Source of the DNA: Phycisphaeraceae bacterium
Lineage (GTDB): Bacteria; Planctomycetota; Phycisphaerae; Phycisphaerales; UBA1924
Length of the DNA stretch: 64,000 nt
Direction of reading: 5' to 3'
Assembly (NCBI GenBank): GCA_019636795.1
Contig: JAHBWW010000003.1
Location: forward strand, 62,001 to 126,000
Shown here: one piece after another, positions 3,801 through 38,665 of the stretch
How the letters are laid out: each line of letters starts with the position of its first letter
How positions within the stretch are numbered: position 1 is the first letter of the stretch
Translations under genes and position numbers: made by a program
The notes under the pieces: model-generated
What the model saw: the letters and a program-made list of their open reading frames with translations, nothing else
Told to the model about the DNA's origin: nothing
Databases searched by the model: none

Positions 3801-3828
3801 CTGACAATCAGGCAATGTGTACGATAAT
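3801..3828 (+). promoter_or_regulatory. Sigma-70-like promoter of the NfeD-flotillin operon
   Basis: A CTGACA -35 hexamer (3801-3806) and a GATAAT -10 hexamer (3823-3828) are separated by 16 bp, each matching consensus at five of six positions. The predicted start of transcription near 3835 precedes the GGAGG ribosome-binding site (3844-3848). It also makes the more upstream in-frame start at 3817 unlikely, because that codon lies inside the promoter. Confidence 0.6.
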
Positions 3829-3855
3829 CGGGCCCATGTGGCCGGAGGTAGTGCC

Positions 3856-4461: not shown

Positions 4462-6083
4462 ATTTCATGAGCATGACCGCATCGAGCAGCGTTGGACTTG
4501 CGCAGGCAACCCAGATCAATACGAGTTTACTCTGGTGGCTGGGCGTGCCGTTTGCGGTGTTTCTGCTGTTGATGTTCGGCGTTCTGGTCGTCAAGACGCT
4601 GTACAAGCGGTGCCCATCGAATCGCATTCTGGTGATTTATGGTCGCGTGGGTGGAGGCCGGGCTGCCAAGTGCCGTCACGGTGGTGGCGAGCTCATCATT
4701 CCGCTGGTGCAGTCGTATGCGTATCTGAGCCTTGAGCCGCTTGTGATCGACATTCCGCTCGAAGGCGCGTTGTCGCTGAACAACATCCGCGTGAATGTTC
4801 CTTCGACGTTTACGGTGGGCATCTCGACCGATCCGGTACTGATGAACAACGCAGCCGAGCGTTTGTTGATGCTTTCGCAGCAGGAAATCCGTAATCAGGC
4901 TCAGGACATCATTCTGGGGCAGTTGCGTCTGGTGATTGCGACCCTTTCGATCGAGGAGATCAACAAGGATCGCGAAAAGTTCATGAACCTCATCAACGAG
5001 AATGTCGCGGGCGAGATCAACAAGATCGGGCTTGAACTGATCAACGTCAACATCCGCGACATCACGGACGAGAGCGGGTATATCCAGGCGATCGGGCAGC
5101 GTGCTGCGGCCGAGGCGATTAATCGCGCAAAGGTTGAAGTGTCGCAGCAGGAACGCGAAGGCGCGGTCGGCGAAGCGATGGCGGTGCGCGAGCGAAATGT
5201 GCGTGTTGCACAGGAAAAGGCACTGGCAGACACCGGGCAGAAGAAGGCTGAGCAGGATCGACGCATTGCGGTGGCGAAACTTGAAGCCGAGGCTATTCGT
5301 GGCGAATCCGAAGCCCAGCGCGACCAGGAGATCGCGGTCGCCGAACGCACGGCCGAAACGGTTGCAGCCGCCAAGCGCGCCGAACAGGAACAGCGTGTGC
5401 AGGTGGCGATGGCCGAAGCAACTGCGGTTGACGGCGAAAATACATCATCGGCCAAGGTTGCGGACTCGAATGCGAAACTGGCCGAGATCCGGGCCGAAGC
5501 GCAACGCCGCGCCGATGTCGCGACGGCAATCGCCAGGCAGAAGATCTATGACGCCGAGCGTACGCAGGAACTCTCACGTCTGGCCAAGGAAAGGGTCGCG
5601 CCCGAGGAGATCGCCAAGCAGTTGGTTGAGATCAAGGCCGAGGCCGAAGCCGAACGTCAGCGGCGCGAGGCTCGGGGTGAAGCGGACGCGATTCTTGCTC
5701 GCTATGAAGCCGAGGCACGCGGCATTCAACAGGTTCTCGAAGCCAAAGCTGAGGGATACCGCAAACTCGTCGAAGCCTGTAGCGAGAATCCGCAAGTGGC
5801 ACCGACACTCCTGATGATCGAGCAGTTGCCGCAACTGATTGCTGAACAGGTCAAGGCGATTGCGAACCTCAAGATCGACAAGATCACCGTGTGGGATAGT
5901 GGTCGAAGTGGATCACAAGTCGAAGGCAAGCCCGGGACGCGCGGTGCGACGGCCGATTTTCTGAGCGGACTGATCGGATCTCTCCCCGCCGTGCACGAAC
6001 TTGCCGAACAGGCTGGAATCGAACTGCCCGGGGCACTGGGCAAGGTCCGCTCAACCCACAATGGCCGGGGATCAGATGAGTAA
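4458..6083 (+). CDS. Flotillin family SPFH-domain protein (YqiK/FloT-like)
   Basis: A 541-residue flotillin. It has one N-terminal membrane segment (roughly residues 20-45, WWLGVPFAVFLLLMFGVLVV), an SPFH/PHB domain with typical flotillin features (a Gly-rich start, YLSLEPLVIDIPLEGALSLNNI, NVNIRDITDESGYI), and then a long Ala/Glu-rich coiled coil with the EA repeats of flotillins. The C-terminal end after the coil (IDKITVWDSG) also matches the family. Flotillins form large oligomers on the membrane and organise fluid or protein-rich patches. It is translationally coupled to the NfeD-like gene (4-bp overlap, with GAGGGGG as a strong ribosome-binding site). It ends 1 bp before the stop of a convergent gene. 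Confidence 0.93.
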   Translation: MNFMSMTASSSVGLAQATQINTSLLWWLGVPFAVFLLLMFGVLVVKTLYKRCPSNRILVIYGRVGGGRAAKCRHGGGELIIPLVQSYAYLSLEPLVIDIPLEGALSLNNIRVNVPSTFTVGISTDPVLMNNAAERLLMLSQQEIRNQAQDIILGQLRLVIATLSIEEINKDREKFMNLINENVAGEINKIGLELINVNIRDITDESGYIQAIGQRAAAEAINRAKVEVSQQEREGAVGEAMAVRERNVRVAQEKALADTGQKKAEQDRRIAVAKLEAEAIRGESEAQRDQEIAVAERTAETVAAAKRAEQEQRVQVAMAEATAVDGENTSSAKVADSNAKLAEIRAEAQRRADVATAIARQKIYDAERTQELSRLAKERVAPEEIAKQLVEIKAEAEAERQRREARGEADAILARYEAEARGIQQVLEAKAEGYRKLVEACSENPQVAPTLLMIEQLPQLIAEQVKAIANLKIDKITVWDSGRSGSQVEGKPGTRGATADFLSGLIGSLPAVHELAEQAGIELPGALGKVRSTHNGRGSDE

Positions 6084-7953: not shown

Positions 7954-10900
7954 ATGCTGCTGACTCATTTCCGTCCCATTCGCTCCAGCAAGCCGGACTT
8001 GCGTGTGCTTGTGCTGCTCGCAGCTGCGTGTTTTCTTGGCTCGCCATCGATCGGCGCGGCCGCCGCACGCGAAGACAAGACCGAAAAGAAAGATGCGTTG
8101 ACACTCGAACGCATATTTCCCGAACGATCGTTCTTCGGCCCCGGCGCAAGCAGCATGACTTTCAGCCATGACGGACGCTTCGCTGCATTTCTGTATCGGC
8201 CGTATCACGAGCGTCGGCACGGCAGCGACCTGTATATTCACGATACGAGCACCGGGCAGACTCGGCGGGTCACAACGGCGAGTCGAATGGCAGAGTTCGA
8301 AGCATCGACACGTCTGGTGGTCGAAGACCGTGAGAAAAAGGCCAAGGCTGCGAATGTGTCGCTGGCTCAACTCGCACGCGAGCAGGCATCGCAACTCGAG
8401 TGGATTGACGATCGGCCGCTCGGCACATGGGAAGGTACAGCGGTCAGCGATGGCGGGCCTATCACGACTGGGAAAACTTCGGTGGTGATCTCCCGCGACA
8501 GGAAGGGCGATCTCGTCGGCGAGCTGAGCGTTGGTCTTGTGAGTCTCACGATCAAGGCGTTGACCTACGACGATGCTGCTTCCGCATTCAAAGGTGCGAT
8601 CGACGACGCGGCACGCAGTGCCAAGGGCGAGTTCGCGTTGTCAATCAAGGACGAAGGAGCCTCAGCCCTGCTTGTGCTGACTGAGCCTGCGCAGACGTTG
8701 ACGTTCCAGTTGACGCGGGCTGCTGCTGAAACGCCGAAGAAGAGGCCTCCGCCAGCGGGTGTGATCGGTGCCATTGGTGAACGTCTGACACTCGGTGATG
8801 TCGTACTCGATGATGATGCGACGGTCAATGATGAAGTTGACGGCCGACCGCCACGGACGCGGGCGCCGCGCTATTCCGGCATCTCGTCCATCGAATGGTC
8901 ACCCAAGTCGCACGAGATGTTGCTGATCTCTGATGGCGAGATTTACCGTCTTGTGTTCGATCTGAATCAGTGGGATGCACCCATCAAGCCTGTCGCAGCA
9001 CAGGCTGCGCAGCCCGACGCCGAAGAACCAGAGTCCCAGAATGACGACGCTACGAATGAGTCTGAGGCAGACTCCACCCCCACCGCCGACGCTCGACCTA
9101 TAGAGGACAACGAGGCAGTCGCAACACCAACCGACTCAGCGACGAGAATAAATGAGCCGAAGTTCGATAAGCCCGTCATCCCGTATCGCGGCGAACTGTC
9201 TCGCCTGACGCGCACCCGCGAGCGAGAAGCAGATGTACAGTACCTGCCCGATGGGTCAGGATACACATACATGCGCTCGGGCTCGCTGCTGCGCGTTTCA
9301 TTCAACGATCACACAATCATGCAGCTCGACCCGGAACTCAAGGACGGCGAGCGCATGGTTGGCTATCGCATCAGCCCCGATCAGAAGCGGCTTGTCTTTC
9401 TGGCCAATCGCGGCGACAGTTACTGGTCCGGCGGCCGACAGGTCACGATTGTCAACTATCGCGATCGCTTCGCGCGCGCGCAAACGGTCACACGCCACAT
9501 GCCCGATGACCCGTGGCCCGAGGCGTACTCGAGCATCTATCTCTATGACCTCGCGGGACACGATAAAGAACGTGGCACGCTCGAACGCGTCTTTACACGC
9601 AGGCTGAGCGGGCCTCGCGATATCATGCGTATCCCCGACTGGTCGCCCGACTCATCACGCATTGCCTTTGCTGCGTTCGATCAGCAGAGCGGGCACGTCA
9701 AGATTCTTGAAGCCGGCTTCGTGGACGCCAACGCCAAGAGCGTGCCTCCCACAACGGTCGATACGCCTCCCGCGAGTGCCGAAAGCGACAAGCCAGCGAC
9801 AGAACCCGAAGAGCCGATCTTCAAGATCGAGAACGCGCGCGTGGTCTATCAGTTTCTGCATCATGGCGGCCCCAATACGCCCGGCATGGTCGCGCCGATG
9901 TATCTGCCCGACAGCCGGCGCATGGTGTTCATCACGGAACTTTCCGGTTTTCGCCATCTGCACTTGCTCGACCCTCGCTATGAAGCCCTCTCGCAGATCA
10001 CAGAGGGACAGTTTGAGGTCTACCCGTTCCATCTGGCTCGCGATCATTCAACACTCTTCGTCACTGCAACCAAGGACGACCCCAATCAGGAGCAGGCGTA
10101 CGCGATCGACCTCGAATCGCGGCAGATGCGCACACTGACAGATCGTCCCGGAGTTTTCGGCAGCGTTGCGGTGCGCGATGACGGCAACTATCTGCTCGCT
10201 CGGTATGTCGATTTCGGAGGCCCCAGCGAACTCGTTGCTATGCGCCCCGGCACCCCCGAGAGTCTGACTGTGCTCACTGATTCTCATCCTGAGGAGGGGC
10301 ACAAACTGACCACAGCCTCGCCCGAATACTTCACCTACGAAAACCGCCATGGCCAGACGATCCACGGGCACATGTTCAAACCAGCCGACTGGACCCCGCA
10401 GGATAAGCGGCCACTGCTGATCTACGTCTATGGCGGACCGCTCGGTGAGCGCAAGATGGCCACCCGCGGCGATTACGCTGCCCCCTCATACTTCTTCGCG
10501 CGATACATGGCCGAGGTGCATGGCTGGGTTGCTGCAACGATCGATCCTCGCGGCGCGTCCGGCTACGGCGCCGTCTTCGAGAAGGCCAACTTCGAGCAGG
10601 TCGGCAAGCCTCAAACCGAAGACCTTGTCGATGGCGCACGTTGGTTCGTCAAGAATCACGGGGTAGATGACAAGAAACTCGCCATGCATGGCTGGTCTTT
10701 CGGCGGCTTCCAGACCCAGATGACGATGTACACCGAGCCGGACGTGTTCGCAGTGGGCATGGCGGGTGCCGGCCCCACCGAATGGCACAACTACAACTCC
10801 TGGTACTCTACTGGAACGATCGGCGCGAACAACCCGGGCAGGACTGACCTCGAGAAGTTCTCGCTTCTCCCGCTGGCCAAGAACCTCAAGGGAAAACTGC

Positions 10901-11178
10901 TTCTTGTCCACGGCGTGGAAGACTCCAACGTGCTCTACCAGGACACTGTGAGAGTCTACCGCGAACTGCTCAAAGCCGGGAAGGAAGTCAATGTCGAACT
11001 CTTCCTCGATCCCACCGGCGGTCACGGGCTCGGTGGTGACGTCAAGACGATCGGGCGGTACCGCAAGTATGAAGACTTCCTGATTCGTCACCTTGGCAAG
11101 GGCACAGCACACATTGCGACGCAGACCGAAGAACAACCAGCGACCGAAGAGGCCCAAGAAGAGCAGCCGACTGAGTGA
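7954..11178 (+). CDS. Secreted prolyl oligopeptidase family (S9) peptidase with propeller insertions
   Basis: A 1074-residue protein. An AAGGAGA ribosome-binding site at 7942 and a clear signal peptide (residues 1-40, DLRVLVLLAAACFLGSPSIGAAAA) choose ATG 7954 over 7828. The N-terminal two-thirds is a WD-like beta-propeller with repeated 'SPDQKRLVFLANRGD', 'SPDSSRIAFAAFD' blades. Two insertions interrupt it: a GTWEG...GDLVGELSVG small beta domain (about residues 150-250) and an acidic Pro/Glu/Thr stretch (about 345-405). The C-terminal 260 residues are the alpha/beta-hydrolase domain: nucleophile Ser in GWSFGG, Asp in LLVHGVEDSNVLY and His in TGGHGLGG complete the triad. It probably cleaves peptides outside the cytoplasm, being DPP4-like or acylaminoacyl-peptidase-like. 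Confidence 0.9.
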   Translation: MLLTHFRPIRSSKPDLRVLVLLAAACFLGSPSIGAAAAREDKTEKKDALTLERIFPERSFFGPGASSMTFSHDGRFAAFLYRPYHERRHGSDLYIHDTSTGQTRRVTTASRMAEFEASTRLVVEDREKKAKAANVSLAQLAREQASQLEWIDDRPLGTWEGTAVSDGGPITTGKTSVVISRDRKGDLVGELSVGLVSLTIKALTYDDAASAFKGAIDDAARSAKGEFALSIKDEGASALLVLTEPAQTLTFQLTRAAAETPKKRPPPAGVIGAIGERLTLGDVVLDDDATVNDEVDGRPPRTRAPRYSGISSIEWSPKSHEMLLISDGEIYRLVFDLNQWDAPIKPVAAQAAQPDAEEPESQNDDATNESEADSTPTADARPIEDNEAVATPTDSATRINEPKFDKPVIPYRGELSRLTRTREREADVQYLPDGSGYTYMRSGSLLRVSFNDHTIMQLDPELKDGERMVGYRISPDQKRLVFLANRGDSYWSGGRQVTIVNYRDRFARAQTVTRHMPDDPWPEAYSSIYLYDLAGHDKERGTLERVFTRRLSGPRDIMRIPDWSPDSSRIAFAAFDQQSGHVKILEAGFVDANAKSVPPTTVDTPPASAESDKPATEPEEPIFKIENARVVYQFLHHGGPNTPGMVAPMYLPDSRRMVFITELSGFRHLHLLDPRYEALSQITEGQFEVYPFHLARDHSTLFVTATKDDPNQEQAYAIDLESRQMRTLTDRPGVFGSVAVRDDGNYLLARYVDFGGPSELVAMRPGTPESLTVLTDSHPEEGHKLTTASPEYFTYENRHGQTIHGHMFKPADWTPQDKRPLLIYVYGGPLGERKMATRGDYAAPSYFFARYMAEVHGWVAATIDPRGASGYGAVFEKANFEQVGKPQTEDLVDGARWFVKNHGVDDKKLAMHGWSFGGFQTQMTMYTEPDVFAVGMAGAGPTEWHNYNSWYSTGTIGANNPGRTDLEKFSLLPLAKNLKGKLLLVHGVEDSNVLYQDTVRVYRELLKAGKEVNVELFLDPTGGHGLGGDVKTIGRYRKYEDFLIRHLGKGTAHIATQTEEQPATEEAQEEQPTE

Positions 11179-11181
11179 TGC

Positions 11182-12768
11182 TCAGCGCGCGACCTCAATC
11201 GCCCGCGTCTCACGCAGCACGGTCACGCGAATCTCCCCAGGGAAGGTCATTTCTTCGCTGACACGCTTGGCGATATTGTGCGCGATCAGGTAGGCCTCAT
11301 CGTCGTTGACGCGATCAGCATCGACCATGACGCGCACCTCGCGACCGGCCTGAATCGCGTAGGCCTCCTGCACGCCAGGCTGATCCATCGCGATGTCCTG
11401 AAGCTCCTGGAGCCTCTGGACATATCGGTCCATCGACTCACGCCTTGCACCAGGGCGTGCGCTGCTCACCGCATCGGCTGCCATCACGATCGGGGTGTAG
11501 AACGTCGTTGAAGGAATATCGGCATGGTGCCCGCCGATGGCGTTGAGCACGGCTTCGTCCTTCTCTCCGAACTGCCTCGCGAAGTCCATGCCGATCTTCG
11601 GGTGCCCGCCTTCCATCTCGTGGTCCATGGCCTTGCCGATGTCGTGCAGGAACCCACATCGCCGCGCCAGCGTCCCATCCAGCCCCAGCATGTCGGCGAT
11701 GATCTGCGAGAGATACGCGACCTCAACCGAATGGCGCAGGACATTTTGCCCATAACTCGTGCGATAGTGCAGCCGGCCCATGGCCTCGACGATCTTCGGG
11801 TGCAGACCCCTCACATTGACTTCAAGTGCAGCTTCCTTGCCGGCCTTGGCAATCTTTTCGTTGATTTCTGATCGCACTTTCTCGACAACTTCTTCGATGC
11901 GTGTCGGATGCATGCGACCGTCGGCGATGAGCCTTTCCAGCGATTCCACAGCGACTGCCTGACGCACTTTGTCAAAACAGGACACGACGATGACGCCGGG
12001 GGTGTCATCGACGATGATGTCAACACCCGTCACCTTCTCGATCGCGCGAATGTTGCGACCCTCGCGGCCGATGATGCGGCCCTTCATGTCGTCGGACGGA
12101 ATCGCGACCGTGCGGACTGTGGATTCCGAGGTGTGCTCGGTCGAATACCGCTGAATGGCCATCAGCGTAATCTCGCGGGCGCGTTCCTTGGCTTTTTCCT
12201 CTGCTTCTTCCGTGATCTTGCGCACAACCTTGGCCACGTCATGCCTGGAGTCGGCTTCGACACGTTCGAGCAGGATATCCCTTGCCTGCTCTTCCGTGAG
12301 TTTGCTGATCTGGCGCAGCATGGAGTTCTGCTCCTCGATCAGGCCTTCTGCCTGCTTTTCCAGTGCGTTGATCTTCGCTTCCCGTTCGGCAAGCTGCTCC
12401 CCAAGTCGGGTGAGTTGCTGGTCCTTGCGCGTCAGCGCTTCTTCCTTGCGATCAAAAACGTCTTCTCGCTTGACGAGGCGACGTTCGTTCTCTTTGAGTT
12501 CGGCTCTGGCCTCTGCGATTTCCGAATCCAGGGCTTGCTTGCGCTCGATCGCCTTCCGTTCCGCTTCGAGACGAATACGCTCGGCTTCGCTCTCGGCGTC
12601 CCGCTTGGCTGCGGCCACGATCGTGCCGGATTCGGCCTTGGCGCCCGCCAGTGTGCGGTTGATGATGAACCGGGCACCGAACACTCCGACCACGATGCCC
12701 AGCGCGATTCCGACCAACCCGAACACGAGGTCAAAGGCTGTGATTTCTGCCCATGTCGCCAATCTCAT
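11182..12768 (-). CDS. rny: Ribonuclease Y
   Basis: A 528-residue membrane-bound endoribonuclease that starts mRNA decay. It has one N-terminal membrane helix (FGLVGIALGIVVGVFGARFII), a long Glu/Arg/Lys-rich coiled coil (about 45-200), a KH RNA-binding domain (MKGRIIGREGRNIRAIEKVTGVDI) and an HD phosphodiesterase domain (CGFLHDIGKAMDHEMEGGHPKIG). The C-terminal part ends EEMTFPGEIRVTVLRETRAIEVAR, typical of the family. Both GTG 12777 and ATG 12768 are possible. ATG 12768 has GAAGGG 8 nt upstream. It converges with the S9 peptidase gene, leaving 3 bp between stops. Confidence 0.96.
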   Translation of the reverse strand: MRLATWAEITAFDLVFGLVGIALGIVVGVFGARFIINRTLAGAKAESGTIVAAAKRDAESEAERIRLEAERKAIERKQALDSEIAEARAELKENERRLVKREDVFDRKEEALTRKDQQLTRLGEQLAEREAKINALEKQAEGLIEEQNSMLRQISKLTEEQARDILLERVEADSRHDVAKVVRKITEEAEEKAKERAREITLMAIQRYSTEHTSESTVRTVAIPSDDMKGRIIGREGRNIRAIEKVTGVDIIVDDTPGVIVVSCFDKVRQAVAVESLERLIADGRMHPTRIEEVVEKVRSEINEKIAKAGKEAALEVNVRGLHPKIVEAMGRLHYRTSYGQNVLRHSVEVAYLSQIIADMLGLDGTLARRCGFLHDIGKAMDHEMEGGHPKIGMDFARQFGEKDEAVLNAIGGHHADIPSTTFYTPIVMAADAVSSARPGARRESMDRYVQRLQELQDIAMDQPGVQEAYAIQAGREVRVMVDADRVNDDEAYLIAHNIAKRVSEEMTFPGEIRVTVLRETRAIEVAR

Positions 12769-27168: not shown

Positions 27169-29139
27169 TTACTTCTGCTCGACATTGAGAGAGTCGCGGA
27201 AGGCCAGTTCCTGAGCCTCGCGTTGGCGAATGGCTATGCGAAACTCGGCCATGCCAGGAGGCTCGGGAAAGAGCGTCGAAAAGGGCTCGGACTCGCCTTT
27301 GGCATGCATCTGCTTGACCACGTCCTCGTATGTCGAGACGAGCGAGTCATATGCGTATTGCTTCAGATCGTTCGGAGCGAGTTGGTAGAGCAGTTCGGCA
27401 TCGGTCAGAGATAGAGCGTTGAATGTGAGCACAAAGACGATGCCGGCAAAGTACCTGAAGTCTCGGGGAAGGTACTCCATTCGAGCGGTTGTGCCACTGG
27501 CGACCATCGGGCGATACTGCTTGACCATGTAGTATTCGTGGGCCTTTGCAGCATACTCAAGCCCGCCGCGGAATCGGTCGGCATCTCCCGCCAGAAGCCA
27601 GGCGTAGGCCTGCTGGAGTGAGGCAAAGGTCTCCTGCCGAGCAACATTGGGGGAATCCCAGCGATCGTTCAGATTTGAAAGTACGAACTCTTCGATTGGT
27701 CTTGAGTACTGCACCGAGCGGTTCGGATCGTTGATGTTCTGGCCTTCGAATGTGCGCAGGCGTTCGTACCAGCGTTCGGCTTCGGCCACCTGCCCGCGAC
27801 GAAAGTACATGGACACAACGTCCTGCATGAAGTTTTCGTAGCCGGTCGCGTACGGTGTGAGAGCGCGGCGACGACGGTCCTCGAAGACACCACCCAGTCG
27901 AACGATTTGTTCGTGTAGATCGCCATAGGACTCGGAAAAGTAGACGTTGGGCATCGCGAGATAGACACCTTCGCCACCGCTCTTGAACTCGAGGTAGTTG
28001 AAGTACACCTCACCGCCGCGCCAGAGTTCGGCAAGAGACTGCATGATCATGCGGTTGGTGTTCACAAAGTCGAACGCGGTGGCGTTTTCGAGACTGACGC
28101 GTTCCTCGCCCCGTTCGACACCCAGAGCGGACCAGTAGAGTGCGTGAGCCATGGGATGACGCCAGTCGATGGGGCCCCACCGACGGGTGAGACGTTCCAT
28201 CGTGTGCGGATTCATGTTGAAATCGTCGATGATGACACGTTTGCGGGCGTGTGCGATGAACACATCCCAGGCCTGCTCGTACTGTGGATCTGCGAGAAGC
28301 TCGGCGAATGCCTTGTTTTTGTCCCCCCACTCGCTGACATAGAGCCCTCGCAGTGGAGAGCCTACGAGTTCGCTGTGAAATGTGTACCTCGTCAGCAACT
28401 CGCGATAGGACTCGAATCCGACGCGGGATTCGATCTGGGCGATGAGTGCAGCTGCATTTGGTGATCGCGCGATTACACCCGCTCTTGAATCGGGCGCCTC
28501 GACAATGACACGGATCCAGTTGGCGAAGAGATTGATGACATCTTCGCGTGACTGCGAGTCGGCCAAGCGGACAAGTGGCGGACGCCCGAGAATCTCGGTC
28601 CATTCTGCCGCGACCTTTCGCTTATAGAACTGGCTCGAATCGTCTGTATAGCCGCCGATTTTGTGGATATAGATCCACGAAAGTTCCTTGTAGAGAAGCA
28701 TCTCATTAGGGTTGTACTTGATGCCTTCATCGCGGAGGAGGCGAATTCCAGCCTGAACCCACTGCCAGCGCTCTTCCGGAGTCTGCGTGACGACTGAGAT
28801 GTTGTAGGCCATGTTCCAGGCGTGGAATGCCCACACACGCGGAAAACGAGGTTGAAGGCGAGTGATGGCCTTGGAGAGTTCGATCGCCTCGTAGTACTTG
28901 CCCTGTTCCTTGAGCTCGTTGGCGCGGATCCAGAGAATGTTGACGAACAGGCCTCGGAACGCGCCCATCGCGATGCCCAGCGCAACCTGCGGCGGATCAC
29001 CTTCTTCGACGCGATCGGTATACGAGAGTTTGTGCTGTCCGACCGAGCCGGCGAGTTGGTACGAGAACCCCGCCGAGACGCTGAGTCCGAGCAAAACGCA
29101 CCCGATGGCGATGATCCTGATGATGAGGCCGGAGTTCAC
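27169..29139 (-). CDS. Membrane-anchored repeat protein of the SPFH-ABC operon
   Basis: A 656-residue protein of unknown function. It has one N-terminal membrane helix (about 3-25, GLIIRIIAIGCVLLGLSVSAGFSY), so the rest faces outside or sits in the periplasm. The remainder is helical with TPR-like phrases such as ELKEQGKYYEAIELSKAITRLQPRFPRVWAFHAWNMAYNI and MYFRRGQVAEAERWYERL. GTG 29139 is chosen because AAGGA lies 9 nt upstream; the open frame starts at TTG 29160. The stop of the upstream permease gene is 21 nt away. Its position at the end of the operon suggests it works with the ABC permease, perhaps as a scaffold. Confidence 0.75.
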   Translation of the reverse strand: MNSGLIIRIIAIGCVLLGLSVSAGFSYQLAGSVGQHKLSYTDRVEEGDPPQVALGIAMGAFRGLFVNILWIRANELKEQGKYYEAIELSKAITRLQPRFPRVWAFHAWNMAYNISVVTQTPEERWQWVQAGIRLLRDEGIKYNPNEMLLYKELSWIYIHKIGGYTDDSSQFYKRKVAAEWTEILGRPPLVRLADSQSREDVINLFANWIRVIVEAPDSRAGVIARSPNAAALIAQIESRVGFESYRELLTRYTFHSELVGSPLRGLYVSEWGDKNKAFAELLADPQYEQAWDVFIAHARKRVIIDDFNMNPHTMERLTRRWGPIDWRHPMAHALYWSALGVERGEERVSLENATAFDFVNTNRMIMQSLAELWRGGEVYFNYLEFKSGGEGVYLAMPNVYFSESYGDLHEQIVRLGGVFEDRRRRALTPYATGYENFMQDVVSMYFRRGQVAEAERWYERLRTFEGQNINDPNRSVQYSRPIEEFVLSNLNDRWDSPNVARQETFASLQQAYAWLLAGDADRFRGGLEYAAKAHEYYMVKQYRPMVASGTTARMEYLPRDFRYFAGIVFVLTFNALSLTDAELLYQLAPNDLKQYAYDSLVSTYEDVVKQMHAKGESEPFSTLFPEPPGMAEFRIAIRQREAQELAFRDSLNVEQK

Positions 29140-29160
29140 GAGATCATCCTTTGCACACAA

Positions 29161-31077
29161 TCAACCTTGACCCGAATACACCGCCAACTGGCGCTTGCGG
29201 AAGATTGCGACGCCTATGGCGTAGAGTACGAATGTGACGATGCTGAGCACGACAACTGCAACCGCAACGGTCTGCCACGACATGATGCGACCCTGAACGA
29301 GGCGATCGACCGGGCGAAGTTCCGAATACACGCTGAAAAATCTGGCGACGATGGTCGAAACGATTGCAGCGAGTTGCTTGAGCAGGACTTCCTTTCCTGA
29401 GTGGTCGGTAGTACTGAAGGATTCCATCGACTTGGTGAGGAATCCTGCAGATTCGGCCATCAGGAAGACGGAAATGGCTACGAGCGAAGCGACAGAGAAA
29501 CTGAGAAATGTCGCCGCCCAGATCGAGAGCATCGCCAGAAATGCCAGTTTGATCCACAGCACGCCGGCGACTCGGACGAAGTTTATCTGAAATCCACTTG
29601 CTCGGTAGGCGATTTCGATGCCGCCTGGTGGGAACGTGATGGTGGCGGGGTTGGGGGTGATGAAGGGCACGCCATCTGGTGTTACGCGCAACTCGCCGTT
29701 GTAGACGCGAATACTCAGTTCGCCGGGGTTTTCATGTGCGGGCTGGCCGATGTACTCGGGCGAGAGCGTGATCGTGTGATTGATGCCAAGAGCGGTGCGT
29801 CGGGTGATGATCTGCCCGGTGGGCATGAGGAACGAGAGGATGTAGAACTCGTCGGGGCGATTTCCGGCTGCATCAACCCGATAGCGAAGCGTGATCGGCA
29901 GATCGCGAGCCTTGGCGCGTTCGAGCCCGGTGAACGTGTACATCTCGCCAACCATCTCATTGATCGGGTCGATCGATCGATACGATTGCACGAGGCTCTT
30001 GAAGAGATCACTTTGGACCTTGGCTCGCTCGGCCGGATACGTGGCGAACTCCGGATTGAGCACTCGCTCGCGGCGAATGAACTCCTCGACCGCTTCAAGA
30101 AAGTCTGGATCTGAGGGCGAATACGGATTGACAGGATCAACGCGACGGACAGCGGTGAGCACCTGCGTTTCGAGAATGAGGCGGTCTTCTGAAACACCAC
30201 CATCGGCGGCAACATACGCCTGGACTTCGCCATACGCCGGCTGCGAGCGGAGGTACTCGACGAACAGAAAAATGCCGGTGCAGCAGACCGACAGCAGGAC
30301 TCCCTGAAGCGCGACAATACCAATCCATTTGCCGAGGAGATACTTCCACGCAGGTACGGGCTTGGTCATGGTCTGCCAGATGACGCGAGTGCGTTGCTCG
30401 TTGCTGAGCGTGGTAACGCCGAATACGAGAGTGAGCACCGCGATCAGCCAGAACGAGCCGCCGGTGCTGTACTGAAGGAAAGACTGGAGGCGGTATCGCA
30501 GCGGCTGCCCGGAGTCGAGCACACCCGGGAGCGCGGCAAGGCCGAAAATCAGCAGGACGATGAAGACGAGCGAGACTCGCATGCGTACCGCTTCGGCGAG
30601 GACGTTGCGCGCTATAGCCATCACTGGCCCAGGCCCGGAGAGCAGAATGCGCACGCCCTGCATCAATGCAGTGAACGAAGCCGTGAGTGCAACGATGCCG
30701 ATGAGCAGCCTGGCGTAGATTGCGGTGCTGCTGTACATCGAAAGCGGCCAAGCCAAGCCAAGCGCAAAAAGCAGCAAACCCAGATACGTCAAACCGAGCC
30801 CGAGCCACACGACAATACAGGCGACGATCGCGATGGATCCGACAAGCACGCCAAAGCCCGAAACACTCTGTGATCTTTCGAGCAGTTGGCCGATGATGCG
30901 AGCGGTCTCTTCGGAGGCTCCGGGCGCAAGGCCCGTCGCTGTTCCGGATGTGACAGAAACGGCGTACCACCCAAACACGGCCACTGAAGTAATGAACACA
31001 AGGGCCGTCGCGAGGATCTTGAACAGACGCGACTGCTGCACGCGATCAATCTGGCTCCAGCGGTCTTTGAGACTCAC
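29161..31077 (-). CDS. ABC-2-like transporter permease with large extracytoplasmic domain
   Basis: A 638-residue membrane protein. Helices include LFKILATALVFITSVAVFGWYAV (19-41), two in the 75-120 region, then FLQYSTGGSFWLIAVLTLVFGVTTLSNEQRTR, IWQTMTKPVPAWKYLLGKWIGIVALQG and a C-terminal pair ending VAVVVLSIVTFVLYAIGVAIF. The 'TMTKPVPAWKYLLGKWIG' segment is like ABC-2 permeases, which mark the cytoplasmic end of a helix with 'l.kP......l.gK'. A roughly 240-residue hydrophilic region between helices is probably extracytoplasmic. The GTG start overlaps the ATPase stop by 4 bp. It likely forms an exporter with that ATPase. The substrate is unknown. Confidence 0.8.
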   Translation of the reverse strand: MSLKDRWSQIDRVQQSRLFKILATALVFITSVAVFGWYAVSVTSGTATGLAPGASEETARIIGQLLERSQSVSGFGVLVGSIAIVACIVVWLGLGLTYLGLLLFALGLAWPLSMYSSTAIYARLLIGIVALTASFTALMQGVRILLSGPGPVMAIARNVLAEAVRMRVSLVFIVLLIFGLAALPGVLDSGQPLRYRLQSFLQYSTGGSFWLIAVLTLVFGVTTLSNEQRTRVIWQTMTKPVPAWKYLLGKWIGIVALQGVLLSVCCTGIFLFVEYLRSQPAYGEVQAYVAADGGVSEDRLILETQVLTAVRRVDPVNPYSPSDPDFLEAVEEFIRRERVLNPEFATYPAERAKVQSDLFKSLVQSYRSIDPINEMVGEMYTFTGLERAKARDLPITLRYRVDAAGNRPDEFYILSFLMPTGQIITRRTALGINHTITLSPEYIGQPAHENPGELSIRVYNGELRVTPDGVPFITPNPATITFPPGGIEIAYRASGFQINFVRVAGVLWIKLAFLAMLSIWAATFLSFSVASLVAISVFLMAESAGFLTKSMESFSTTDHSGKEVLLKQLAAIVSTIVARFFSVYSELRPVDRLVQGRIMSWQTVAVAVVVLSIVTFVLYAIGVAIFRKRQLAVYSGQG

Positions 31078-32306
31078 CGGCTAGGCTCCTCGTCTGCGTC
31101 GTCGGAATCAACCAGCGAGTCGATCAAACTTCGATCAACCTGCGGCTGCGGAGCGGTTCGCGCTTCATGTTGCTCAACGGGTGATGACACTTCGGGCTCC
31201 GGCTCTGACATCAGGTCGCTGATAAGCGAGTCTGATTCATCGGTTGCTTGTTCGCTGACGTCCCGACTTCTGCTCTGCTCGAACGCCTCATCAACACTCG
31301 ACGGGCTGGGCTCGTCGCGGGTAAGGCTTGCGATGAGTTCATCGCCTTCGGGCGTCGAATCAGCGCGGAGAAATGCAGCAGTTTCCCCGCCGTGCATCGC
31401 TCCCGAAGTCGATGCCTTCTCAGCCTGAGCACGCTCTACGATGCCAAGGAAGAGTTCTTCGAGTTTTTGACGTGGCTTGGTGACGCGGCGAATGGACTTG
31501 TCGCCGGAAGACCGCCGACGGATGATCGCGTCGATTTCGGAGATAGTCTGATCGTCGAGCTCGTCGGTCTCGATGGTCGTGAGGTTTTTGCGCGTCAGGA
31601 GTTTGTCACACGTGCCCTCATCGCGGATACGCCCGCCATAGAGAATGACCATGCGGTTGACAACATCCTCAACATCTGCCAGAAGGTGGCTCGAAAGAAT
31701 GATCGTCTTGCCTCGACGACCAAGCTCCAGGATGAGATCCTTGACTTGCCGGGTGCCGATCGGATCCAGGCCGGTGGTGGGTTCGTCGAGAATGAGCAGA
31801 TCGGGATCGTTGATGAGTGCCTGTGCAAGGCCTATGCGGCGCTGCATGCCTTTGGAGTACTCTCGCACGGGGCGAAACTGAGCATGCGTGAGGCCCACCA
31901 TGTCGAGCAGTTCATCGATGCGGCGGTGGCGTACTGAGCGATCAAGATTGAAAAGTTTGCCATAGTAATCGAGGGTCTCGCGCGCATTGAGAAACTGGTA
32001 CAGATATGACTCTTCTGGCAGATATCCGATACGACGCTTGGTGCGGACATCGGTCGGGAGGTTCCCGAACACAACGGCACGGCCCGAAGTCGGCTTGAGC
32101 AAACCCAGAAGCAACTTGATCGTCGTGCTCTTCCCAGAACCGTTTGGACCGAGAAGCCCAAAGATTTCGCGGGGCATGACGTTGAACGTGACGCCATCGA
32201 CTGCGCGAGCGCGATCGCGCAGCCAGAAGTCCTTGAAGACCTTGGAGAGCCTCATGCACTCGACAACAGGCTTGGACTTTTTGGCTTCGCCGGCTACTTC
32301 AACCAT
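31074..32306 (-). CDS. ABC transporter ATP-binding protein with acidic C-terminal tail
   Basis: A 410-residue protein. Its N-terminal 290 residues are a standard ATPase: Walker A GPNGSGKS (53-60), signature YSKGMQRRIGLAQAL, Walker B LLILDEPTTGLDP, H-loop LSSHLLADVE. The rest (about 295-410) is a hydrophilic tail rich in Ser, Glu and Asp that ends in PSR. It has no recognisable domain and may bind partners. The CcmA/DrrA-like ATPase module belongs to exporter-type systems that pair with ABC-2 permeases. AGGAG lies 9 nt before ATG 32306. The stop overlaps the downstream permease start (GTGA). It is 27 bp downstream of the third SPFH gene. Confidence 0.92.
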   Translation of the reverse strand: MVEVAGEAKKSKPVVECMRLSKVFKDFWLRDRARAVDGVTFNVMPREIFGLLGPNGSGKSTTIKLLLGLLKPTSGRAVVFGNLPTDVRTKRRIGYLPEESYLYQFLNARETLDYYGKLFNLDRSVRHRRIDELLDMVGLTHAQFRPVREYSKGMQRRIGLAQALINDPDLLILDEPTTGLDPIGTRQVKDLILELGRRGKTIILSSHLLADVEDVVNRMVILYGGRIRDEGTCDKLLTRKNLTTIETDELDDQTISEIDAIIRRRSSGDKSIRRVTKPRQKLEELFLGIVERAQAEKASTSGAMHGGETAAFLRADSTPEGDELIASLTRDEPSPSSVDEAFEQSRSRDVSEQATDESDSLISDLMSEPEPEVSSPVEQHEARTAPQPQVDRSLIDSLVDSDDADEEPSR

Positions 32307-32333: not shown

Positions 32334-33722
32334 TTAACCTCCGAGTTCTGGTACTTGCTGACGACTGAATCGCTCTGCCTCGATTTCCTGAATGCGACGG
32401 CGCTGCTGCTCTTCGGTCTGTCGCCGCTTGAGATCACTGTACATTTGTTTCATGATTTCGGGGTCGGCGTTGATGATGAGCTGAACCCCCATCGCATCAG
32501 GAATCATCATGGTCTGTACAAAGTCCCTGGCAGTGAACTCGTTGTAGGCCGTCACCCAATCGCGATACATCATCAGCGACGGATTGGCCGCAAACTGCTC
32601 CTGCTTGGCCAGGAAGATGCGAAGGTCAGCCTCTGCCGTTTCACGCAACTGATTCCCCTGCGAACGGGCCTTGGCCAGGATTTCCGTCACTTGCCCAGAC
32701 GCCAGACCTGCCGGGTAGGTTTCACCCTCGAACTCAACCGCACGCCCTTCCATGATGTCATTGATCGAGGCCATTACCGCTTCGGCTCGCTCGGCGTCGC
32801 GGGTTTCGATCGCTTCCTCATACTTGCGAATCAAGCCGACCAAAGCGTCGGCCGCCGCGCCGGCGATCGACCGCTTTACCGTGTCACCCTCGCGCCCGGC
32901 CTGCTCGCGGGCTTGACTGGCATTGCTGACCGCAGCCTGCACACTCTCAAACGCGGGCCGGAGTGTCAGAGGAGCAGTCTTGCGATAGAGCGTTACCTTG
33001 TCGATATCGATGCCCGAGTTCATCTGGTCGAGCATGTCCTGCGCGACGAGTTTGATGCGAGCAACAATCGAGCCTTCGTCGCTGTCAGCCTGCTTGAGAA
33101 GGTCATCGATCGTGATCTGTGCCATGACCCGCACAATGCCTCGCTTGACGGCCGCAGCGACGATTCGCTGTTCATCCTCGGGCAGGATGCTCTCGGCGTA
33201 CACGCGGTGCCGTACGCGGCGGTAGTCAACCTTCCATTGCGCATGAGCAATGTTCAGATCGCCCGTGACGAGCGACCCGTCTCGCTCGGGAGAGATCTGT
33301 GGCAGGCCCTGTATCTGGTCGATGGGAGTCTCGTAGTTGGTCCCGACATACGGCCAAAACTCGCCGAGCAGACCGAGAGTAGTGTGCGCAGCATTGACCT
33401 TGACCATCTCGCCGATGGGGAACGGGAAGCTCAGGTGCAGGCCCGGTTCGAGTTGGTCGGCGGTGGGCTTGCCAAAGATGAGAGGCACGCCGCGCTCGTT
33501 CTCTTCGATGCGCTGCATGCCGCTAAAAATGAAGAGAATGGCCAACCCGACCATCGCAACCTGTACGATGCGGTAGGTGATGCGCAGCGCGTCGGCGAGC
33601 GACTGGTTCGCCGGGTCCATCATCTGTTCAGTGGTCTCGGTCGCCCCGCGCAGCTGGACCGACGCCGTCCGACGCAGCCCGGTGCTCGTTGGCTCACGCA
33701 TGATCGGATCCTGCTCGCTCAT
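32334..33722 (-). CDS. SPFH/band 7 protein (HflK-like), third of three in the operon
   Basis: A 462-residue protein with a cytoplasmic N-terminus, one membrane helix (about 50-68, VQVAMVGLAILFIFSGM), and an SPFH domain that begins NERGVPLIFGKPTADQLEPGLHLSFPFPIGEMVKVNAA. The C-terminal coiled coil is Glu/Arg-rich (AIETRDAERAEAVM, LKRRQTEEQQRRRIQEIEAERFSRQQ). HflK/HflC of other bacteria assemble around the FtsH protease, and this may too. It is translationally coupled to the previous SPFH gene by an ATGA overlap. No ftsH is nearby in the window. Confidence 0.87.
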   Translation of the reverse strand: MSEQDPIMREPTSTGLRRTASVQLRGATETTEQMMDPANQSLADALRITYRIVQVAMVGLAILFIFSGMQRIEENERGVPLIFGKPTADQLEPGLHLSFPFPIGEMVKVNAAHTTLGLLGEFWPYVGTNYETPIDQIQGLPQISPERDGSLVTGDLNIAHAQWKVDYRRVRHRVYAESILPEDEQRIVAAAVKRGIVRVMAQITIDDLLKQADSDEGSIVARIKLVAQDMLDQMNSGIDIDKVTLYRKTAPLTLRPAFESVQAAVSNASQAREQAGREGDTVKRSIAGAAADALVGLIRKYEEAIETRDAERAEAVMASINDIMEGRAVEFEGETYPAGLASGQVTEILAKARSQGNQLRETAEADLRIFLAKQEQFAANPSLMMYRDWVTAYNEFTARDFVQTMMIPDAMGVQLIINADPEIMKQMYSDLKRRQTEEQQRRRIQEIEAERFSRQQVPELGG

Positions 33723-34735
33723 TCGGCCGCTCCTCGCGATTGCAGGCCCATGTCCAGGTCCATTGCCGGAAAGTCAACCGGCAACTTGCCAGGTGCGAGG
33801 TCACGCAGCGCTGACGGGCTGAACAGTCGCATGCCGAAATCACGCACCGACAGCACGAGGGTGACGCGACGGGCAAGAATCTCGCGCATCATGTCAACAT
33901 TCTGAATGAAGATGGCCAGTTCAGGATGGGTGTTTTGTGCAGCAAGATATTGAGCTGCTTCCTGCTCGCCACGCGCGATGATCTCCTTGGCGCGGCTTTC
34001 GGCAAACGCGCGAATGCGCTGCGCATCGGCATCGGCTGAGGCTTTGACCGCGCGGGCAATGGCTTGCCCCTCGCTTGAATACTCGGTTGCAAGGCGAGCG
34101 CGATTCTCCTTCATGCGCTCCAGCACGTTCTTGGTCGTCTCTTCAGGCAGCACGATGCGGTCGATTCCAACCATGGTGACTTCGATGCCATATTCCACCA
34201 GACTTTCACCGGCCTCGCTTTGACCCGTGATGAGCTCGAAGACGGCAGACTCGAGCTGCGGCAGTCTGGAAGCACCCGCACGCTCGGCAAACAGTTCGTT
34301 CATGCGATACTTGCTGGTCTCGCCAAGGGCGCTGCGCAGTCTCGAACGAAGCATGTCCTCAGCCTGGCGAAAGTGATCGCTCGAACGGTTGCCGGCAGAA
34401 CTGAACCTCCGATAGAACGCAAGTGGGTCTGAAACGCGATAGGTCGCAAACCCTTCCACGATAATCTGGAAATTGTCCGCCGTCTGCTGCGTCTCGCTGC
34501 GAGCCTGCAGAAAACGCTGCCGAGTGTCGTACTTGGTAACCGACTGAATCGGGTATGGCCACTTGAACCTGAACCCGGGTTCTGACGCGCGTGTCGCGTC
34601 ATCATTGGCCGCGCCGAAGGTCGTAAGGACAGCGGCTTCGGTGAACCTCACGCTATAAGAGATGGTGAACGAGATCAGTGCGGCCAGAAAGACCGCAACC
34701 ACGCCCCACACCAATGGAAACTTCGCTCTGTTCAC
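33719..34735 (-). CDS. SPFH/band 7 protein (HflC-like), second of three in the operon
   Basis: A 338-residue protein with an N-terminal membrane helix (about 8-28, PLVWGVVAVFLAALISFTISY) and an SPFH domain: RFTEAAVLTTFG, EPGFRFKWPYPIQSVTKYDTRQRFLQA. The C-terminal part includes the HflC-like helix ASADADAQRIRAFAESRAKEIIARGEQEAAQYLA, typical of the modulator family. The size equals that of ordinary HflC proteins (about 300-350). Its stop overlaps the next gene by 4 bp, and 55 bp separate it from the first SPFH gene. I infer an SPFH hetero-oligomer made of this protein and its two neighbours. Confidence 0.9.
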   Translation of the reverse strand: MNRAKFPLVWGVVAVFLAALISFTISYSVRFTEAAVLTTFGAANDDATRASEPGFRFKWPYPIQSVTKYDTRQRFLQARSETQQTADNFQIIVEGFATYRVSDPLAFYRRFSSAGNRSSDHFRQAEDMLRSRLRSALGETSKYRMNELFAERAGASRLPQLESAVFELITGQSEAGESLVEYGIEVTMVGIDRIVLPEETTKNVLERMKENRARLATEYSSEGQAIARAVKASADADAQRIRAFAESRAKEIIARGEQEAAQYLAAQNTHPELAIFIQNVDMMREILARRVTLVLSVRDFGMRLFSPSALRDLAPGKLPVDFPAMDLDMGLQSRGAAE

Positions 34736-34790: not shown

Positions 34791-36869
34791 TCATTGCGGC
34801 GCTCCTGCGCTCGGATCGAAAATGTTGGTCGTGCCCTGGTCTTCGAGTTGGAAGCGAATCCACGCGAGTTCTTCCGGGACGACATAGACGCGGGCGTCTT
34901 TCATGGCTTCACGCAGTGCTGCGAAGTACTGTTTGGCACGGTAGAGTTCAGGCGCTGCGTTGTAGGAGGCAACCTGCCCCTGATGCAAGGCTGCAAGCCC
35001 GCGTTCGTGCATGTGCCGCGTCCAACGCTGCGCACTGGCCTGAATGATTCGGGCACCCATCTGCCCGCCGGCCTGCTCGAGTTCATGCTGGATACGCACT
35101 CGAATCGCAGCCAGTTCTTCATCAGCTCCGCCTGATCGCGAACTCACGTCGAGTTCGTCGAGCATCGCTGCAATCCGTTCAGCCCGCCCGACAGAACCCG
35201 CGGTTCTAGACAAGACTTCGATCTTGTAGCGCTGCGCATCTTCGATCGCGGCTTCGCGTCGCTGCTTCTCCTGAACCACACCTTCGAAGTGGATTGCAAC
35301 AGCCTGTGGCGGATGAACGCCTTCAGCCCCGACGAAGAGAATCTCAATGCCTGCGCCCTTGCCCCCATTGAGTTGGCTGTACGCCTCATCGAGCCGCTGA
35401 CGCAGATCGGCAGCAATGCGTGTTCTGCTTGCCCCCAGAACGTCATCAATCGTGAGCGTCGACAAGTACCTCATTACCTCGCGGCGACCGATACCTTTGA
35501 GAATCTCGTCGCGGGCTGCAGGCGATGCGAACTGGTCGTACAACTCGACATTCGTAATCGTGTAATGAAGCGGCACCTCGACCGCGACCAGAGATGGATC
35601 GATCCCTCCTTCGGAGCGTCCCGCTCGCTGAGTGGATGTCTGCACGATCATGAGCGACTCGTTCAGAGCGTGCGCAGTCGTCCAGAGGATGGGCTTATTG
35701 TCGTTTGTTGGCGGATTCGAACCGAGATGGATCACTCGGACGCCTGACGCGGTACGAATGATCTCGCCCTTCGACTCGCTGTGATCATCGCCGTAGTGAA
35801 CACGCTGGTATTCGGGAATCTCGACCGTACTGATAGGCCATGGCCACTTCATGGTCAGACCAGGCCCGACATCGCGACGCGAGATTTCTCCCCATGTCAA
35901 AATCATTGCCCGCTGATGAGGTTGAATGACGACAAACGAGGTCAGCAGCCACGTCGTGCCCACCGCGAGGACCAGGAGAATCAGCACCCATCGGCTCAGA
36001 AGGCGATAGAACCAAGTGCCCGCGACATCGACGCCGAACTGGTAGTTGATTGCTTCGCCGATCGACTCGGCAATCTTGTCCGGAGCAGCAAGGAACCCGA
36101 GAACGCGCGAATCAAACGCAGCCCGCGGATCTTCGCCTGGGCGACGAGGGCGGTACAGATTCAGCGCGAAACTGAAGATGACCTCCAGCCCAAGCACCAG
36201 CATCCCGAGCGGAAAGATCACCGGCAGATAGCGCAGGACGATGTCTTCCTTGGTGGCATACGCAATAAAGTGCGCCAACGCCAGGGCCAGGCCGAAGAGC
36301 GCGCTCCCGACCGCAAACGCCGCTCCGCCGCGCAGACTCGACCAGACACGCTGCTTGGCCATGCCTGCGACAAAGCGTGCAAAGACAAAGCCCACAAACG
36401 CGGTACCAATGCCGATCGAGATACCCCAGCCGGGCAACTTGGCAAAGACTGCGTCATCCGCTTCCACCAGACTACGCCCCGACGTGAGTCGCAGCCATCC
36501 AAACCCCAGCAGAAGTGCAGCGATCAAAAGGCTCACGCCCGGCACGAAGAACTTCTGCATCGCCGCAAGCCTCTGGGCGGCCGGACGCAGTTCTCCCTCC
36601 GATGAATCGAACGCGCTCGAAGCCCCACTCTTGCCGATCGCTTCGATCTCGAGGTCTTCGAGGCGTTCGCGACGATGCAGATCGAACATCAGTCCGAGCG
36701 TTGCCCACGCCAGCAACCCGATGCCAAGGTGCATCGCCGCGGTCAGTGCCGCGTGATCCTGCCCGTACTGGCTATAGATCAGGAACACCAGCGTCAGGAG
36801 CAACTGAATCAGGAAGCCCGTGATCGAAACTGTTGTTCCACGCCGGTAAGTCAGATAGTCGGCTTTCAT
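34791..36869 (-). CDS. SPFH/band 7 protein fused to a multi-helix membrane module (HflK-like), first of three
   Basis: A 692-residue fusion that is unusual for HflK. It has about seven predicted membrane helices (roughly 13-33, 43-62, 108-127, 147-170, 181-205, 213-236, 294-315) before an SPFH domain starting VIQPHQRAMILTWGEISRRDVGPGLTMKWPWPISTVEIPEY. A C-terminal coiled coil follows (EKQRREAAIEDAQRYKIEVLSRTAG, with AGIIQ-like and AALHQGQVASYNAAPELYRAKQYFAAL). Ordinary HflK has one helix. ATG 36869 has GAGGTGA upstream on the minus strand. This is the first gene of the operon, preceded by an 18-bp palindrome (36898-36915). Confidence 0.85.
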   Translation of the reverse strand: MKADYLTYRRGTTVSITGFLIQLLLTLVFLIYSQYGQDHAALTAAMHLGIGLLAWATLGLMFDLHRRERLEDLEIEAIGKSGASSAFDSSEGELRPAAQRLAAMQKFFVPGVSLLIAALLLGFGWLRLTSGRSLVEADDAVFAKLPGWGISIGIGTAFVGFVFARFVAGMAKQRVWSSLRGGAAFAVGSALFGLALALAHFIAYATKEDIVLRYLPVIFPLGMLVLGLEVIFSFALNLYRPRRPGEDPRAAFDSRVLGFLAAPDKIAESIGEAINYQFGVDVAGTWFYRLLSRWVLILLVLAVGTTWLLTSFVVIQPHQRAMILTWGEISRRDVGPGLTMKWPWPISTVEIPEYQRVHYGDDHSESKGEIIRTASGVRVIHLGSNPPTNDNKPILWTTAHALNESLMIVQTSTQRAGRSEGGIDPSLVAVEVPLHYTITNVELYDQFASPAARDEILKGIGRREVMRYLSTLTIDDVLGASRTRIAADLRQRLDEAYSQLNGGKGAGIEILFVGAEGVHPPQAVAIHFEGVVQEKQRREAAIEDAQRYKIEVLSRTAGSVGRAERIAAMLDELDVSSRSGGADEELAAIRVRIQHELEQAGGQMGARIIQASAQRWTRHMHERGLAALHQGQVASYNAAPELYRAKQYFAALREAMKDARVYVVPEELAWIRFQLEDQGTTNIFDPSAGAPQ

Positions 36870-37309: not shown

Positions 37310-38665
37310 ATGACTGCCTCGCTGACCATCGCCCGCAACACTTTGACCGAAAGCCTGCGCCAGCCGGTCGTCTTTCTCCTCGTCATCACATCGGGCGTCC
37401 TTCAGTTGTTCAGCGTCTGGTGGTCGGCGTATTCAATGGGGTACCGGAACGAGCCGGGCGATGTCACAAGCGATGACAAGCTCCTCTTCGACATCGGGCT
37501 GAGCACCATCTTCGTCTGTGGCATGCTCCTGGCTGCCTTCATCGCCACGGCCGTTCTCTCCCGCGAGATCGAGAACAAGACCGTCCTCACAATGGTGTCC
37601 AAACCCCTCTCTCGCACCAGCATTGTCATCGGCAAGTTCCTCGGAGTCGCCGCGGCGGTATTGATCGCCGTCGTGATCATGCTCGTGTTTCTCATGCTCG
37701 CGCTGCGGCATGGCGTGATGAGCACCGCTGCCGACGAAATCGACATGCCAGTGCTCGTCTTCGGGTTTGGCGCCGTGATGCTGTCGCTGCTCATCGGGGC
37801 AGGCGCAAACTTTCTTTATGGCTGGTCATTTCCACAAACCACTGTGGTCTCGATGCTTCCCCTAAGTCTGATCGCGTATTTCGGTGTCCTGGCGATCAGT
37901 GAAAAATGGCAGGTTCAGCCCCTCACCACCGATTTCAAGTCTCAGGTCGCCATTTCATGCGCCGCGCTCACAATGGCCATTCTTGTCATGACAGCGATAG
38001 CCATTGCTGCGTCCACACGCCTCGGCCAGGTCATGACCATCGTTGTTTGTGCCGGCGCATTCATGCTCGGGCTGCTGAGCAACCACCTCTTCGGCCGACA
38101 CGCATTCAAGAATGCACCAATTGCTTCAGTCGCCTTTGCCTACCCGATCCTTCCCGACCAAACTGCGCTCACACGCATCGGCGATTCATACACCGTAGTG
38201 CTCGTGACACCACCAAACGTCGAACTCAGGCCCGGCATGCAGTTTCTCTACGGCCCCACCCCGAACGGGCTGGGGCTGGCGGGGCCGTATACCGCAGAGT
38301 TGCAAGGGACCGATCTCCACAGTAATCCAGTCTTCCCGGCGAACACACCCTCGGGGCTCGTCGTTTCCGCCATCGATGATCTGACTCTCACAATTCGTCA
38401 CATCGGTTCGCGCCCGAGTTCCGTTCGCAGGCCACCACAGTCCGGCGACTTTGTTTTTCTCGAACCCACACGTGTCAATCCCGTAGCCGCCGTCTGCTGG
38501 GCGGTACTGCCCAACATGCACTTCTTCTGGCTTGTCGACGCAGTATCACAGGCCAAGAACATCCCAATTTCTCATCTGTTTTTGATCATCGGGTACGGCC
38601 TTACACAGATACTCACATATCTGGCACTCGCTGTGGCACTGTTCCAGACACGCGACGTCGGATGA
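37310..38665 (+). CDS. ABC-2-type transporter permease, divergent from the SPFH-ABC operon
   Basis: A 451-residue membrane protein. It begins MTASLTIARNTLTESLRQPVVFLLVI, the standard ABC-2 start, and carries ENKTVLTMVSKPLSRTSIVIGKFLGV, with the 'l.kPlsR....GK' element of such permeases. About nine hydrophobic segments are visible, with an extracytoplasmic loop (about 285-375) between helices. It probably pairs with the ATPase at 31074-32306, since no other ABC ATPase is near; that is inference. ATG 37310 is the first start and has a weak upstream ribosome-binding site. It converges with the FliO-like gene. Confidence 0.85.
   Translation: MTASLTIARNTLTESLRQPVVFLLVITSGVLQLFSVWWSAYSMGYRNEPGDVTSDDKLLFDIGLSTIFVCGMLLAAFIATAVLSREIENKTVLTMVSKPLSRTSIVIGKFLGVAAAVLIAVVIMLVFLMLALRHGVMSTAADEIDMPVLVFGFGAVMLSLLIGAGANFLYGWSFPQTTVVSMLPLSLIAYFGVLAISEKWQVQPLTTDFKSQVAISCAALTMAILVMTAIAIAASTRLGQVMTIVVCAGAFMLGLLSNHLFGRHAFKNAPIASVAFAYPILPDQTALTRIGDSYTVVLVTPPNVELRPGMQFLYGPTPNGLGLAGPYTAELQGTDLHSNPVFPANTPSGLVVSAIDDLTLTIRHIGSRPSSVRRPPQSGDFVFLEPTRVNPVAAVCWAVLPNMHFFWLVDAVSQAKNIPISHLFLIIGYGLTQILTYLALAVALFQTRDVG

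Follow-up and report, generated by a model that had tools for sequence, protein, structure and literature searches.

SPFH proteins are best known for forming cages around FtsH-type proteases or for organising membrane microdomains. Ordinary HflK has one transmembrane (TM) helix just before its SPFH domain, and HflK and HflC, which in E. coli form a cage (PDB 7vhq and 7wi3), modulate FtsH. In transporters of the CDF (SLC30) family, [HD]xxxD pairs in TM2 and TM5 hold the metal at a tetrahedral site. A set of SPFH genes linked to metal transport has been reported in Pseudomonas aeruginosa, in which PA2434-PA2439 encode the P1B ATPase HmtA and three HflK/HflC-family proteins and are upregulated on zinc depletion (PMC4542158, PMC11761036). 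Zinc-responsive regulation by Zur has been reported for P. aeruginosa only (PMC4542158). Strain PA14 contains one operon with three SPFH genes, PaFlo5-7, and Pseudomonas has such a trio besides canonical hflKC; the P. aeruginosa trio is reported to occur in P. knackmussii too (PMC13086221). Judging from its gene numbers, the PaFlo5-7 operon appears to be the PA2434-PA2439 hmtA cluster.

Here we describe a related locus in a 64,000-nucleotide stretch of DNA from a Phycisphaeraceae bacterium (hereafter the window), where an HflK-like protein, protein A, carries an additional membrane module. An earlier note on this DNA had drawn attention to the module; the more important point, which the note had missed, is that the protein A gene opens a run of three SPFH genes within a conserved transporter cluster. 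The folds involved and part of the gene cassette are known, and the fusion and its genomic setting are, as far as we found, undescribed. Our literature search returned no paper that links SPFH with CDF proteins or describes the planctomycete cluster, and we found no description of the module in the papers on the P. aeruginosa hmtA cluster.

Domain architecture of protein A

The open reading frame of protein A is intact and begins with an ATG at position 36869 (Table 1). The earlier note had described an HflK-like SPFH protein with some six additional helices and a further helix before the SPFH domain, and on this hydropathy, the family average and AlphaFold2 agree. Hydropathy peaks lie at residues 13-31, 44-62, 108-126, 150-168, 185-203 and 217-235, which gives six module helices within the first 240 residues, not fewer than four, and a seventh peak lies directly ahead of the SPFH domain at 297-315. 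The identical seven peaks were found when hydropathy was averaged over 30 homologs. The loops at 63-107, 170-184 and 236-296 are rich in lysine and arginine, consistent with a cytoplasmic N terminus and an SPFH domain on the outer side. AlphaFold2, run without templates on the full-length protein (pLDDT 80.3) and on the module alone (pLDDT 91.7, pTM 0.87), placed the module helices at 5-36, 39-80, 96-136, 146-170, 179-206 and 210-239, followed by two linker helices at 255-261 and 263-278. A sequencing or annotation artefact is ruled out by full-length homologs across the whole order: protein A had a match in 60 of 60 relatives searched, mostly full-length, and its start (MKADYLTYRR) and helices are common to these relatives. 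No Pfam or NCBIfam model spans residues 1-290, and the module recurs in 63 of the 64 genomes sampled from the class and in 30 others of the phylum.

Table 1. Features of the SPFH-transporter cluster, in positions of the window.
Feature	Position	Strand	Assignment or evidence
Protein A (692 aa)	34791..36869	-	Pseudo-CDF membrane module (probable non-transporting CDF derivative), linker, TM7, HflK-like SPFH/coiled coil
Protein A, residues 1-246	36132..36869	-	Six-TM module, CDF (SLC30) fold, without metal site
Protein A, residues 247-294	35988..36131	-	Conserved cytoplasmic linker
Protein A, residues 295-313	35931..35987	-	TM7, counterpart of the single TM helix of ordinary HflK
Protein A, residues 314-657	34899..35930	-	Periplasmic SPFH domain and long helices, HflK-like
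Protein B (338 aa), HflC-like SPFH	33719..34735	-	Band_7 8.5e-25; NCBIfam hflC 85.1 bits (cut-off 134.4)
Protein C (462 aa), second HflK-like SPFH	32334..33722	-	NCBIfam hflK 77.5 bits (cut-off 159.4)
ABC-2 type transporter ATPase (410 aa)	31074..32306	-	ABC_tran 5.2e-30
ABC-2 permease (638 aa)	29161..31077	-	ABC2_membrane_2 2.5e-7
TPR-like protein (663 aa), N-terminal membrane anchor	27169..29160	-	TPR_14 5.5e-4; family alignment
Second ABC-2 permease (451 aa), divergent	37310..38665	+	ABC2_membrane_2 1.6e-12

The remainder of protein A resembles HflK and HflC in having an SPFH domain followed by long helices on the periplasmic side, with one TM helix just before it. Pfam Band_7 matched residues 314-547 (E 1.6e-9), and the best PDB sequence match of the SPFH part was HflK (1.2e-26). 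Structural alignment with HflK chain 7vhq_E gave Z 14.4 over 221 residues at 25% identity, with a high rmsd of 42.7 that is probably due to the long helices being oriented differently. Unlike HflK, with its single TM helix, protein A has seven, since it adds six TM helices and a conserved cytoplasmic linker. It scored 59.5 bits with the NCBIfam hflK model (TIGR01933), below the cut-off of 159.4, and we rejected its assignment as a canonical HflK equivalog. All three proteins fall under the NCBIfam equivalog cut-offs, A and C scoring best with hflK and B with hflC.

A CDF fold without the metal site

We compared the module with known structures using VIA-align and found that the top 36 PDB entries were all CDF zinc/manganese transporters, including YiiP, SLC30A10, ZnT1, ZnT3, ZnT7, ZnT4 and ZnT8. 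The match to YiiP had Z 19.7 and an rmsd of 2.9 over 204 aligned residues, and the next, unrelated entry had Z 7.7; the full-length model gave a similar CDF outcome, and Foldseek's own E-values for the module were modest (best 0.014). For profile-profile comparison, an alignment of 101 modules was set against a profile built from the CDFs of the same genome and its relatives. In hhalign's local mode with this 101-row alignment the score was 47.7-49 over approximately 190 columns that extend across the six helices; controls made by reversal or column shuffling, or taken from unrelated membrane proteins, scored no higher than 25.9. With global mode and a narrow alignment, scores were weak. Pfam Cation_efflux (E<=1) matched 4 of 29 homologous modules, the best at 4.6e-6, and did not match protein A of the window; the curated cut-off was not reached. 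Because the structural match and the independent profile-profile comparison point the same way, we conclude that the module descends from the TM domain of a CDF transporter.

The module thus shares with YiiP, ZnT1, ZnT3, ZnT7 and SLC30A10 a six-TM fold, a cytoplasmic N terminus and a weak but significant profile homology. Unlike these proteins, it lacks the HxxxD/DxxxD motifs and the C-terminal domain, and it is fused to a seventh TM helix and an SPFH domain. None of the 101 aligned module members has the [HD]xxxD pairs with which TM2 and TM5 form the CDF metal site. In place of the cytoplasmic ferredoxin-like C-terminal domain, which some short CDFs likewise lack, approximately 55 residues precede TM7, and these form helices only, with no strands. 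Because the metal site is absent from the 101 members and the C-terminal domain is missing, the module is, judging from its sequence, probably a non-transporting CDF derivative, and we rejected its assignment as an active CDF, as it has no metal motif. A binding, docking or structural role would fit better than metal transport.

Other residues are strongly conserved. All 101 members have glutamate 229, which lies within the membrane in TM6, and R165 (TM4) and Q22 (TM1) vary little or not at all within the order. Conservation along protein A is highest in the linker together with residues 239-242 (YRPR); this stretch includes FDSR, YQFG and W286 and can be written as the motif PR.AFDSR..GF...P..IAESIGEAINYQFG...WFY. 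Linker residues S254, Y276, Q277, G279 and W286 are invariant or almost so throughout the phylum.

An SPFH trio in a conserved transporter cluster

The gene for protein A is the first of six co-directional genes, in the order A, B, C, ABC ATPase, ABC-2 permease and TPR protein, which are separated by short gaps or overlap by 4 nt; such overlaps join the genes of C and B and those of the ABC-2 permease and the ABC ATPase. A second, divergent ABC-2 permease adjoins the protein A gene in nearly all named loci that reach that far. Predicted TM helices of the first ABC-2 permease are separated by a large soluble segment (approximately 230 residues, about 273-502), which is a candidate contact site for the periplasmic SPFH part. 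Elsewhere in the window (3817-6083, plus strand), a flotillin-like SPFH protein of 541 residues is encoded behind a 214-residue membrane protein that, by eye, resembles an NfeD/YqiJ-type partner.

A scan of genome contigs identified 283 relatives. In the best 80 of these, which form our named loci, the order and strands of the cluster from the second permease to the TPR protein are constant as far as the contigs reach, with median gaps between genes of a few to tens of nucleotides. Nearly all of these 80 are from Planctomycetota; two Nostoc records and one filed as 'Cyanobacteria' are probably mislabelled or contaminant contigs. The two loci filed as Nostoc (L113 and L114) carry the Phycisphaerales cluster at 39% identity. 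Among 20 distant loci there was a single exception to cluster conservation, L164, which has a lone protein A homolog (9984-11987, minus strand) with no B, C or ABC genes nearby. In planctomycetes without the trio, the second permease, ABC ATPase, ABC-2 permease and TPR genes are contiguous (L201-L204, L209 and L210). Of 391 genomes sampled from the phylum, 289 had a match to the TPR protein profile, and many of these matches covered the N-terminal part only.

Most relatives that belong neither to the window's own family nor to those nearby have a P1B metal ATPase gene within the cluster, flanked by C and the ABC ATPase, or adjoining it, immediately past the second permease. Because the core ABC-2 cluster is contiguous in planctomycetes that lack the trio, the trio and the P1B ATPase appear to be a cassette that was inserted into a pre-existing ABC-2 cluster. 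The cluster in the window contains no P1B ATPase gene; a probable ortholog is encoded outside the window (G000:C2:5909-8119, locus L211), with the DKTGT and GDGIND motifs intact and CPC replaced by CPT. Orthologs are 58-81% identical among sampled members of the window's family, and none of the 30 listed from the own and nearby families keeps CPC (they have CPT, CPS, CPA, CPG, VPA or APS), whereas CPC is kept in the five operon-linked members examined, from two other families of the order. Proteins of the former type are, by their motifs, P1B-like ATPases that have lost the metal motif.

Outside Planctomycetota, our view of the spread comes from plasmid records and papers. On plasmids of Paraburkholderia, Burkholderia, Rhizobium and Klebsiella, genes for HflK-like, HflC-like and SPFH proteins and a P-type ATPase form a stand-alone operon, in one case near zinc-ABC-transporter genes. 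In the HflK-like proteins of the plasmids, five to six hydrophobic segments precede the last TM helix, and the region from TM4 to the linker shows homology to the planctomycete module (hhalign E 4.5e-8); compared with the CDF profile alone, the proteobacterial module gave a weak match that was not significant. The gene order of the plasmid operons, HflK-like, HflC-like and third SPFH, is that of the planctomycete trio and is found in the window from 36869 to 32334. As in P. aeruginosa PA2434-PA2439, compared by reported gene content, three SPFH genes occur with a P1B ATPase in planctomycetes. Unlike the hmtA-type operons, however, the planctomycete trio sits inside an ABC-2 transporter cluster, and the P1B gene of the window's family lies outside the cluster and has lost CPC. 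As to whether the module marks a well-known HflK subgroup, protein A does belong to a recurrent cassette of an SPFH trio and a P1B ATPase with reported gene content (PMC4542158, PMC11761036), but the module itself is, as far as we found, undescribed there.

Possible clients of the SPFH assembly

The domain architecture, fold, metal-site loss, gene cluster and cassette relation to the P1B ATPase are computed observations, and we infer that A, B and C form a hetero-oligomer with a scaffold role and transport ATPases as clients. With moderate confidence, we favour a reading in which the SPFH proteins form a heteromer that organises transport ATPases, with the pseudo-CDF as its anchor. Protein A would be the HflK-type subunit of a heteromer with the HflC-like B and the HflK-like C, and its CDF-derived domain, with metal site and C-terminal domain lost, would serve as a membrane docking or anchoring element. 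The three proteins would assemble on the periplasmic face of the inner membrane into a ring or dome like that of HflK and HflC around FtsH. Its clients would originally have been the P1B ATPase linked to the trio, with the ABC-2 transporter of the cluster as a further client in planctomycetes; the pseudo-CDF and the invariant cytoplasmic linker may hold the client within the assembly or tune its activity. The adjacency of the trio and transporter genes is no proof of physical association. A more specific version can be put forward only tentatively: A, B and C might form a chamber around the P-type ATPase, the ABC-2 exporter or both, rather than around a protease, with the demetallated CDF as a built-in membrane adaptor, and in Phycisphaerales the CDF module and the P1B ATPase, both once metal transporters, might have lost their metal ligands and now serve another, non-metal substrate.

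The main rival to a transporter-organising assembly is that the trio is the planctomycete HflKC, which binds FtsH and restrains it, the TM module being a lineage-specific decoration and the ABC neighbours functionally unlinked. This would agree with the genome, which has five Band_7 proteins, none of HflK/C type apart from the trio, and a single FtsH encoded elsewhere, and with the best scores of A and C being to hflK and that of B to hflC. However, the planctomycete cluster has three SPFH genes, not two; its HflK-like and HflC-like genes are adjacent, as in hflKC, but the genes linked to them are those of the ABC-2 transporter and the P1B ATPase rather than FtsH or hfq/hflX, and the same transporter genes recur inside the cluster across the class and beyond. 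Moreover, in Proteobacteria the trio and a P1B ATPase make up an operon of their own, Pseudomonas has its trio on top of canonical hflKC (PMC13086221), and A, B and C all score below the equivalog cut-offs. We regard action on FtsH as unlikely.

The function of the module itself can also be read differently. The earlier note had suggested that it could sense lipid or house a transported substrate; the observation in the note is confirmed and its interpretation partly supported. The link to transport stands in that the fold is of the CDF transporter type; an active transporter, moving metal through a rearranged site or another ion, with the SPFH dome as its periplasmic compartment, would also fit the CPC-bearing P1B ATPases linked to the cluster in most relatives that are of neither the own nor a nearby family, the intramembrane E229 invariant in all 101 members, and the near-invariance of R165 and Q22 in the order. 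Against it, no member has [HD]xxxD in TM2 or TM5 or a C-terminal metal-sensing domain, and the P1B partner in the window's family is likewise without CPC in all 30 listed orthologs; we consider substrate transport by the module improbable. A lipid or sterol sensor was suggested by a weak profile match to the sterol-sensing region of NPC1L1 (E 0.002), but this was lost with a broader profile, and every top structural match is a CDF, which makes such a role highly improbable.

An assembly that organises transport ATPases, if correct, would give SPFH proteins a different and testable kind of client, in a trio that is strictly ordered throughout a phylum, linked to transport ATPases and fused to a degenerate metal-transporter domain. 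The comparison joins the Pseudomonas hmtA-cluster SPFH genes, induced by zinc starvation and barely studied, to the planctomycete system and provides them with a domain-level and evolutionary context.
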